A stretch of DNA of 9,728 nucleotides from Clostridia bacterium (GTDB lineage Bacteria; Bacillota_A; Clostridia; Christensenellales; Borkfalkiaceae): the NCBI GenBank assembly GCA_017462505.1, contig JAFTQY010000007.1, positions 1 through 9,728 on the forward strand. Direction: 5' to 3'. The position numbers were made by a program, and so were the translations under genes. The stretch's first letter is position 1. Each line of letters begins with the position of its first letter. Below the pieces are notes generated by a model that was not told the origin of the DNA, made no database searches, and was given only the letters and a program-made list of their open reading frames with translations. Positions 8,710 through 9,728 of the stretch are shown piece by piece.

Positions 8710-9546
8710 ATGAAGACGATTTCGGTGAATTTGAAAGACGTATATCCCTTTTTGCAGGGCGGTAAGCTGGACGGGCTGGTAACCGATTATCCGTACGACG
8801 GCGAAACGGATCAAAACTGGGCAAGACCGGCGGTGTTGGTGCTCCCGGGCGGCGGGTATGCAATGACCAGCCGTCGCGAAGGCGAGCCGATCGCCAGCGC
8901 CTTTTTGGGACAGGGCTTTCAGGTGTTCGTGCTCTGGTATCTTACCGTAACGGACGGGGTGCGCTATCCCGAAGAGCTTTTGGAGGCGGCGTCCGCGGTG
9001 GATTATATTAAACAGCACGCAAAGGAACTGAATGTAAACCCTGACGAGGTGTTTGTCGTCGGATTTTCCGCAGGCGGGCACTTGACGGGCAATCTTGCCG
9101 TCGAACACCAAAACGTATCGAAAAAAGCGGGCGTTGCGCTCAATTGTAAACCTGCGGGGGTAGGGCTTTGCTATCCTGTTATTTCAAATGTTCACGGGCA
9201 TTTCGCGTCCTTTGAAAATCTTTTAAACGGGTATTCAGAAGAGGAAAAAGCGGCGCTTATGAAAACGCTTAATCTCAACGAGGCGGTTTCCGAGCATACC
9301 CCGCCTGCGTTCATTTGGGCGACTGCGGACGATCAGGTTGTTCCCGGGGACAATGCGATCCGTTTTGCACAGGCAATGTCCGATCACGAACGGGATTACG
9401 AATTACATATTTATCCGCACGGCAGACACGGTTTGGCGACGGGGAATTTGGATATCAACCCCGAAGGACCGGAGCTGAAAAAGGCAAGACGTTGGGTAGA
9501 GGACTGCGCGGAATTCTTCCGTATGTATTGCGTAGAAAAATTCTAA
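8710..9546 (+). CDS. Alpha/beta hydrolase, acetyl-esterase/BD-FAE-like
   Basis: This 278-residue protein is a serine hydrolase of the esterase/lipase alpha/beta type. Visible elements are the oxyanion segment VLVLPGGGYAMTS (PGGGY at 46-50), the nucleophile elbow VVGFSAGGHL (GFSAGG, Ser120), the acid strand FIWATADDQVVP (Asp208 best fits the D-x-V-V-P spacing), and HIYPHGRHGLA, where His240 is the likely catalytic His. The complete triad predicts an active enzyme; similar proteins remove acetyl or feruloyl groups from plant polysaccharides, but the substrate cannot be told from sequence. There is no signal peptide, so it should be cytoplasmic. GAGGA at 8699-8703 overlaps the lysC tandem stops and gives a good ribosome site for ATG 8710, so it is probably translated from the lysC message. 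A terminator follows seven bases after its stop. Confidence 0.88.
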   Translation: MKTISVNLKDVYPFLQGGKLDGLVTDYPYDGETDQNWARPAVLVLPGGGYAMTSRREGEPIASAFLGQGFQVFVLWYLTVTDGVRYPEELLEAASAVDYIKQHAKELNVNPDEVFVVGFSAGGHLTGNLAVEHQNVSKKAGVALNCKPAGVGLCYPVISNVHGHFASFENLLNGYSEEEKAALMKTLNLNEAVSEHTPPAFIWATADDQVVPGDNAIRFAQAMSDHERDYELHIYPHGRHGLATGNLDINPEGPELKKARRWVEDCAEFFRMYCVEKF

Positions 9547-9552
9547 ACATAG

Positions 9553-9587
9553 CAAAAAAAAGAGGGCAAAACAGCTCTCTTTTTTTA
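9553..9587 (+). terminator. Intrinsic terminator of the cdaA-to-hydrolase operon
   Basis: GAGGGC (9562-9567) pairs with GCTCTC (9574-9579, one G-U) around AAAACA, extended by an A-tract on the left and a T-tract on the right (9580-9586). The A and T flanks make it likely to work on both strands. Confidence 0.88.
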
Positions 9588-9645
9588 TTGTATAGTAATA
9601 CCCCGCGTTAGACGCGGGGTTCAGGAAATGTTACACATATAATTC

Positions 9646-9674
9646 TTGAGAATAAAAACTCCTTTTGGTATAAT
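9646..9674 (+). promoter_or_regulatory. Strong promoter reading out of the window
   Basis: TTGAGA (9646-9651) and a perfect TATAAT (9669-9674) are 17 bases apart. The expected start is near 9681-9682, giving a leader of under 50 bases to AAGGAGG (9712-9718) and a start codon probably at or just beyond 9729. Confidence 0.8.
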
Positions 9675-9717
9675 AAAATTGAGGTCTGCAAACCCAATAA
9701 ATAAAAACCAAAAGGAG
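9659..9717 (+). promoter_or_regulatory. Inverted repeat masking the ribosome-binding site
   Basis: CTCCTTTTGGT (9659-9669) and ACCAAAAGGAG (9707-9717) are perfect 11-bp complements; the right arm contains nearly all of the AAGGAGG site at 9712-9718. Inside, ATTG-A-GGT (9678-9685) pairs with ACC-CAAT (9692-9698) with one bulge. The left arm lies between -35 and -10 and ends on the first base of the -10, so RNA begun at the local promoter would lack it, while RNA coming from upstream would contain it. Confidence 0.8.
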
Positions 9718-9728
9718 GACATTCAAGG

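Follow-up and report, generated by a model that had tools for sequence, protein, structure and literature searches.

An anti-Shine-Dalgarno arm in the promoter spacer of IS200-group transposons may distinguish native from readthrough RNA

Introduction

The stretch of DNA analyzed here (the window), the first 9,728 nucleotides (nt) of contig JAFTQY010000007.1 from a Clostridia bacterium genome (GCA_017462505.1), has its 3' edge about 130 nt into the left end of an IS200-type insertion sequence (IS), which begins directly behind the terminator-like hairpin of a host gene. We show that one arm of an inverted repeat covering the Shine-Dalgarno (SD) sequence of the gene leaving the window lies in the spacer of the predicted promoter of that gene, and that most relatives of the element carry a candidate -10 at the same place. 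We propose that this arrangement acts as an anti-readthrough switch, in which RNA from the element's own promoter would be open for translation and RNA entering from outside would be masked, a reading to which we give a probability of about three in four. The identity of the element, the stem, the covariation of its arms, the position of the promoter and the terminator context are well supported by sequence, through both anatomy and conservation.

A related logic is known in another transposon class, that with terminal inverted repeats, to which IS10 and IS50 belong. In IS10 (Tn10) and IS50 (Tn5), readthrough RNA reportedly masks the ribosome site of the transposase and native RNA does not, as Davis et al. 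are said to have described in 1985.

Results

The two arms, CTCCTTTTGGT and ACCAAAAGGAG, are complementary at 11 of 11 positions and separated by 37 nt (Table 1), and the right arm masks the SD sequence AAGGAGG except for its final base. An inverted repeat of at least 11 bp appeared in 12 of 3,000 dinucleotide shuffles of positions 9601-9728. The predicted promoter (TTGAGA, a 17-nt spacer and TATAAT) has 11 of 12 consensus bases, is flagged for the TG of an extended -10, and is the sole + strand site among the 2 promoter-like sites in 9500-9728 (shuffles: mean 0.5). The left arm takes up the 3' part of the spacer and shares the first base of TATAAT. Because the promoter is of the extended -10 type and has the arm in its spacer, the predicted native start, placed 6-8 nt past the -10 at about 9681, is downstream of the arm, about 12 nt past its end, which would exclude the arm from the RNA. 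The initial annotation had described a perfect 11-bp repeat over AAGGAGG with its left arm upstream of the expected start of this promoter; both sets of coordinates proved right, the start standing as a prediction, and the repeat recurs with covarying arms in relatives.

Table 1. Coordinates of the host gene, its terminator-like hairpin and the left-end features of the IS200-type element in the window
Feature	Position	Strand	Basis or remark
Upstream host gene, hydrolase-like open reading frame (ORF), 278 aa	8710..9546	+	Co-directional with element
Terminator-like hairpin and T-tract of host gene	9555..9586	+	Inverted-repeat listing; score 16.2
Rfam RF01405 (STnc490) match	9599..9714	+	59.2 bits, gathering 56; model 1-124 of 124
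Left-end subterminal hairpin, presumed TnpA recognition hairpin	9600..9620	+	9-bp perfect inverted repeat; first hairpin of RF01405
-35 element TTGAGA	9646..9651	+	Promoter scan; near relatives read TTGAAA
Left arm (anti-SD), CTCCTTTTGGT	9659..9669	+	Within promoter spacer
Extended -10, TGGTATAAT	9666..9674	+	TATAAT 9669-9674, TG 9666-9667
Inner hairpin in loop, predicted native start (~9681) at foot	9679..9697	+	Fold; RF01405 structure
Right arm, ACCAAAAGGAG, overlapping SD	9707..9717	+	Inverted repeat
SD AAGGAGG of gene exiting window (tnpA in near-identical copies L006, L010)	9712..9718	+

The proposal of an IS200/IS605-like left end was borne out by a full-length match to RF01405 and by near-identical copies that continue past the point where the window stops. 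RF01405, or STnc490, is named in the available text of PMC2515195 for an RNA antisense to Salmonella IS200, and its alignment describes the IS200 left end in sense orientation, with an end hairpin, a small hairpin and an arm CCuuuuG pairing with CaaaaG. In a roe-deer gut Clostridia genome (G002), the left end of locus L006 matches positions 40-131 of our 133-nt query at 95% identity, its contig starting there, and leads into a 150-aa Y1 transposase (PF01797, 3.4e-39; NF033573, 1.6e-43; PDB Y1 transposases). The left end of L010 matches positions 2-131 at 95% and is followed by the same transposase, with a TnpA start 99% identical, so the search for a Y1 TnpA frame beyond 9728 was positive in both copies. 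A right-end-like hairpin lies about 75 nt past the tnpA stop of L006 and leaves no space for a second gene, hence no tnpB, an observation confined to this copy. The features that define the IS200 group were all found: a single-ORF Y1 (HUH) transposase (in the near-identical copies), a left-end subterminal hairpin and an SD-masking inverted repeat.

Related left ends were gathered by transposase protein, by DNA similarity and by RF01405, and loci were kept when a match to the N terminus of tnpA was preceded by at least 100 nt; L029 and L052 were dropped because no start codon was found. The 83 usable upstream regions gave 67 non-redundant ones, 59 of them with a TnpA at least 45% identical to P0001; these comprise 9 chosen by DNA, 3 by RF01405 and 47 by protein, and counts were repeated on the 47. 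A set of 48 elements holds the members of the 59 with a stem score of at least 7.5, minus the enteric L107. A viral-contig set started from 80 loci; 36 nearly duplicated members of the first set, 8 nearly duplicated one another and 3 were too short, which left 33. Four loci with an unclear left end or a misassigned start (L047, L071, L073 and L115) were retained as misses. Strict two-arm patterns had no match in viral contigs, and DNA similarity gave weak matches in plasmids and phages (only L005 was followed) and none in E. coli genomes. RF01405 is a poor detector of divergent members, since it reached its cut-off in none of the 6 Bacillota genomes searched and gave matches below it in 2 of them.

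The position of the -10 is conserved across these elements. We asked where the best extended -10 among 104 upstream positions starts, counting places 42-62 nt before the start codon: 50 of 59 left ends had it there, as did 39 of the 47 selected by protein (200 shuffles: mean 9.4, maximum 18) and, with the criterion set beforehand, 27 of 33 from viral contigs. Measured from the 3' end of the left arm, the best -10 fell at -4 to +7 nt in 43 of the 48 non-enteric stem-bearing elements (200 shuffles: mean 5.6, maximum 13), in 33 of 37 protein-selected elements with a stem and in 24 of 28 from viral contigs. An arm-abutting -10 scoring at least 7 was present in 34/48 (shuffles: mean 0.3, maximum 2), and the TG of the extended -10 in 34/43. 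Upstream of the arm, none of the 48 had a -10 scoring at least 7, and the mean best score was 3.16, vs 3.29 in shuffles. A relative on a Pseudodesulfovibrio plasmid (L113 515-700; TnpA 43%) has the SD stem and lacks the arm-abutting -10; therefore, not every member of the family follows this design.

The comparison of the arms, made with no stem threshold and with partners searched afresh, indicates that they coevolve. The left region of each element formed a helix scoring 10.8 with its own right region, vs 7.1 with foreign right regions and 6.3 for shuffled left regions, and the own helix exceeded the foreign mean in 50 of 57 elements; in the viral set the corresponding values were 10.7, 6.6 and 6.2, and 30 of 32. 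Pair types along the stem change together across relatives. In 42 elements, none of 300 shuffles reached the level of canonical pairing observed at offsets -6 to -1 and at 3 to 8, around a nearly constant GG core, in a per-position count that is biased toward the chosen stem. An earlier arm-swap test (11.2 vs 6.4; 46/48) was set aside, as the left arm had been chosen for its own partner. If the native RNA lacks the left arm, pairing would be selected only in readthrough RNA (or as DNA), and such selection is the main argument for the native/readthrough logic of the initial annotation. Between the end hairpin and the left arm, many elements (e.g., L022, L049, L079) have a small palindrome (GCTTTAGC, GCTTAAGC or similar) followed by GATGA-like letters.

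Folding predictions for the 43 elements meeting the promoter criterion point in the same direction: the mean unpaired probability of the SD core is 0.52 in native and 0.04 in readthrough RNA, with the native value higher in 42 of 43. For the window, the predicted value is 0.49 from 9681 and 0.19-0.20 in any RNA with the arm, a floor due to the last G of the SD core lying outside the stem.

IS200-group elements are commonly preceded by terminator-like hairpins. Among the 51 of the 59 elements that were scored (6 had no scorable end hairpin and 2 were too close to a contig start), 39 have such a hairpin with a T-tract at most 75 nt upstream of the end hairpin, vs 11.4% of 2,431 control windows from the same loci, and 36 have one scoring at least 12, vs 1.4% of controls; since the control windows are mostly coding, intergenic location accounts for some of this excess. 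For 26 of these 39, the gap between the terminator stem and the end hairpin is 13-19 nt, and this fixed distance argues for a real preference of IS200-group elements for host intrinsic terminators as targets. Four genomes with multiple copies have a terminator-like hairpin ahead of 24 of 27 copies (a count that omits G531, with 5 copies, and L132, a G437 copy of another type); the flanks differ among copies, and therefore these hairpins are host DNA. The usual order is hairpin, T-tract, often TTGTA, and element, L105-L109 and L116-L148 included. The nearest upstream ORF of the 59 elements is co-directional in 39 and opposed in 7; none was found in 11, and the sequence was too short in 2. An over-representation of IS200 between convergent genes, noted in the available part of PMC9208149, fits this terminator context. 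Among the literature matches listed, none dealt with terminators as IS200 targets, which is not proof of absence.

Enteric IS200 also has the left-end and inner hairpins and an SD-masking stem, and its Y1 transposase is about 74% identical; all five copies scored (L105-L109) likewise follow a terminator-like hairpin. It differs at the -10: enteric IS200 reads CCCCTTTTGATTTGTTAAAAC, with no good arm-abutting -10 in the 6 of 6 copies read (L107 scores 2.7). The string TTTTGATTTGTTAAAAC stands at the arm in the same number of enteric copies read (6/6) and also in 35 of the 77 left ends on viral contigs (hosts unchecked). The start published for Salmonella IS200 (Fig. 1 legend of PMC12594629) lies ahead of the arm, at bp 40, and belongs to a "poorly defined promoter"; therefore, the element's own mRNA is masked. 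The accessible text of that article describes the SD masking as a brake on the element's own mRNA and reports that the folded 5' end is used as a small RNA (sRNA). A midpoint-rooted TnpA tree with 58 rows unites the five enteric ones (100/100) and nests them in a group of 19 (100/99), whose 14 non-enteric rows include 13 scored promoter-bearing; the sister relation of the enteric group to the window's own group has moderate support only (86/83). The 11 changes counted on the tree are likely too many, since the label "other" includes elements with an evident -10 missed by the stem finder (e.g., L049, L055, L060 and L098). The simplest reading is that the -10 was lost in the enteric line.

At the host locus, relatives L001-L004 show 72-81% identity. 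L001, L002 and L004 have the same hydrolase-like gene and a similar terminator-like hairpin behind it without the element, and thus represent an empty site (L003 was not read). The label "hydrolase" is the naming of the initial annotation. A promoter and terminator scan with other thresholds listed no terminator for the window, so that the hairpin at 9555..9586 is unlisted there. Several contigs of metagenome-assembled genomes (L006, L008, L009, L016) begin or end within the element, as assembler breaks at repeats give, and the end of the window at 9728 may be such a break. Since L008 (1501-1633) reads CAAGGTGAA at the place where L006 has CAAAATGAA, tnpA in the window's element may begin with GTG.

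Discussion

Our data suggest a transposase promoter that holds the anti-SD arm between its -35 and -10 elements. RNA from this promoter would start at the foot of the inner hairpin, without the arm and with an accessible SD, and RNA leaking past the host terminator would carry both arms, cover the SD by forming the 11-bp stem and give scarcely any transposase, or none. Transposase expression would then be set by the element's own promoter and not by the strength of the upstream host gene. Here we infer the start site and the selective reason from comparative sequence, and the translational effect from modeled folds. The idea that native RNA lacks the arm and readthrough RNA carries it, put forward in the initial annotation, fits the sequence, is conserved in the IS200 clade and was replicated in the viral-contig set. 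Its proposed source of readthrough is a hydrolase operon; the co-directional hydrolase-like gene upstream has its own terminator, and therefore only leaked transcription would enter the element. Across the group, readthrough would be a standing threat, because a terminator-like hairpin adjoins most of the elements scored. Among the literature matches listed, none described an arm-overlapping IS200 promoter, which is not proof of absence.

Several observations weigh against this proposal. The window itself contains no transposase codons. The place criterion for the -10 fails in 8 of 47 protein-selected and 6 of 33 viral-contig left ends, and a stricter stem finder, handicapped by choosing a single SD hexamer, lowers the arm-relative count to 38/43. 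Most elements have a weak -35, good ones being found mainly in the window's near relatives; without a good -35, promoter function would fall to the extended -10. Constancy of A at position 2 and of T at position 6 is partly built in, as the -10 scorer prefers these bases, and the evidence is limited to where the hits fall, to the TG and to the margin by which scores exceed those of shuffles. A further TATAAT in the window, at 9638-9643, is shared by the nearest copies only, and, by analogy with the published start of Salmonella IS200, an unrecognized upstream promoter could also exist in the window's element. Only 26 of 57 elements, and 21 of 32 in the viral set, have an own helix that outscores 95% or more of those with foreign partners, because near relatives share arms and the SD core is common to all. 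Finally, predicted native openness is only about 0.5 and is below 0.3 in several elements (L042, 0.01; L080, 0.21; L077, 0.22), and in one of the 43 (L101) the native RNA is not more open than the readthrough RNA.

Three other explanations have to be weighed. The native start could lie upstream of the left arm, as in classic IS200 control, in which case native and readthrough RNA would both be masked and the stem would simply keep transposase low. The Salmonella element, with its start at bp 40 and an SD-sequestering stem in the 5' untranslated region (PMC12594629, in the part available), speaks for such control, but the distribution of -10 elements, concentrated at the arm and absent upstream of it, and replicated in the viral set, makes it unlikely for the window's element; moreover, enteric IS200 lacks precisely the -10 that abuts the arm elsewhere. 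The repeat could instead act as DNA, as a single-strand hairpin read by TnpA or needed in transposition, with the overlap with the SD being incidental. We consider this improbable, given that 51 of the 57 first-set loci whose upstream DNA is long enough have a separate end hairpin, that the stem sits on the ribosome site, and that the pairs of this stem covary on either side of a GG core that hardly varies. It is also conceivable that the -10 beside the arm is an AT-rich coincidence without promoter function; the region is indeed AT-rich, and the scorer selects some -10 in any sequence. Yet shuffles reached at most 13 of 48 and 18 of 47, vs 43 and 39 observed, and at most 2 scores of at least 7, vs 34, which leaves coincidence very improbable indeed. 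An anti-readthrough switch accommodates these observations best in our estimation.

The principle is known from IS10 and IS50; what would be new is its placement in a single-strand transposon, in the promoter spacer, and its tie to insertion behind terminators. The likeness lies in the logic of native vs readthrough masking, which in our case is drawn from promoter position and folding, and the difference in that the IS200 family moves as single-stranded DNA and the arm is inside the promoter spacer. Mobile attenuators, described in the available part of PMC2965389 as terminators at IS 5' ends that protect against outside transcription, are likewise carried by the element; as presented there, protection acts through RNA termination, whereas here it would act through translational masking of RNA that has already passed.

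It is tempting to extend this proposal to the history of the family, although we lean slightly against its holding in full. Ancestral IS200 might have told its own RNA from leaked RNA by means of the arm in the spacer, a design suited to inserting behind host terminators. Enteric IS200 might then have lost the arm-abutting -10, so that transcription begins upstream and the RNA, folded in every case, gives hardly any transposase and became available for domestication as the structured 5'tnpA sRNA. If so, the long-standing dormancy of IS200 would be a by-product of a promoter shift, and both the near-immobility of enteric IS200 and its use as an sRNA would have a testable cause. If, in most of the clade, the stem senses where a transcript comes from, enteric IS200, the textbook case, would be the exception, and protection from impinging transcription would extend to single-strand transposons, tied to the very terminator preference that makes it necessary.
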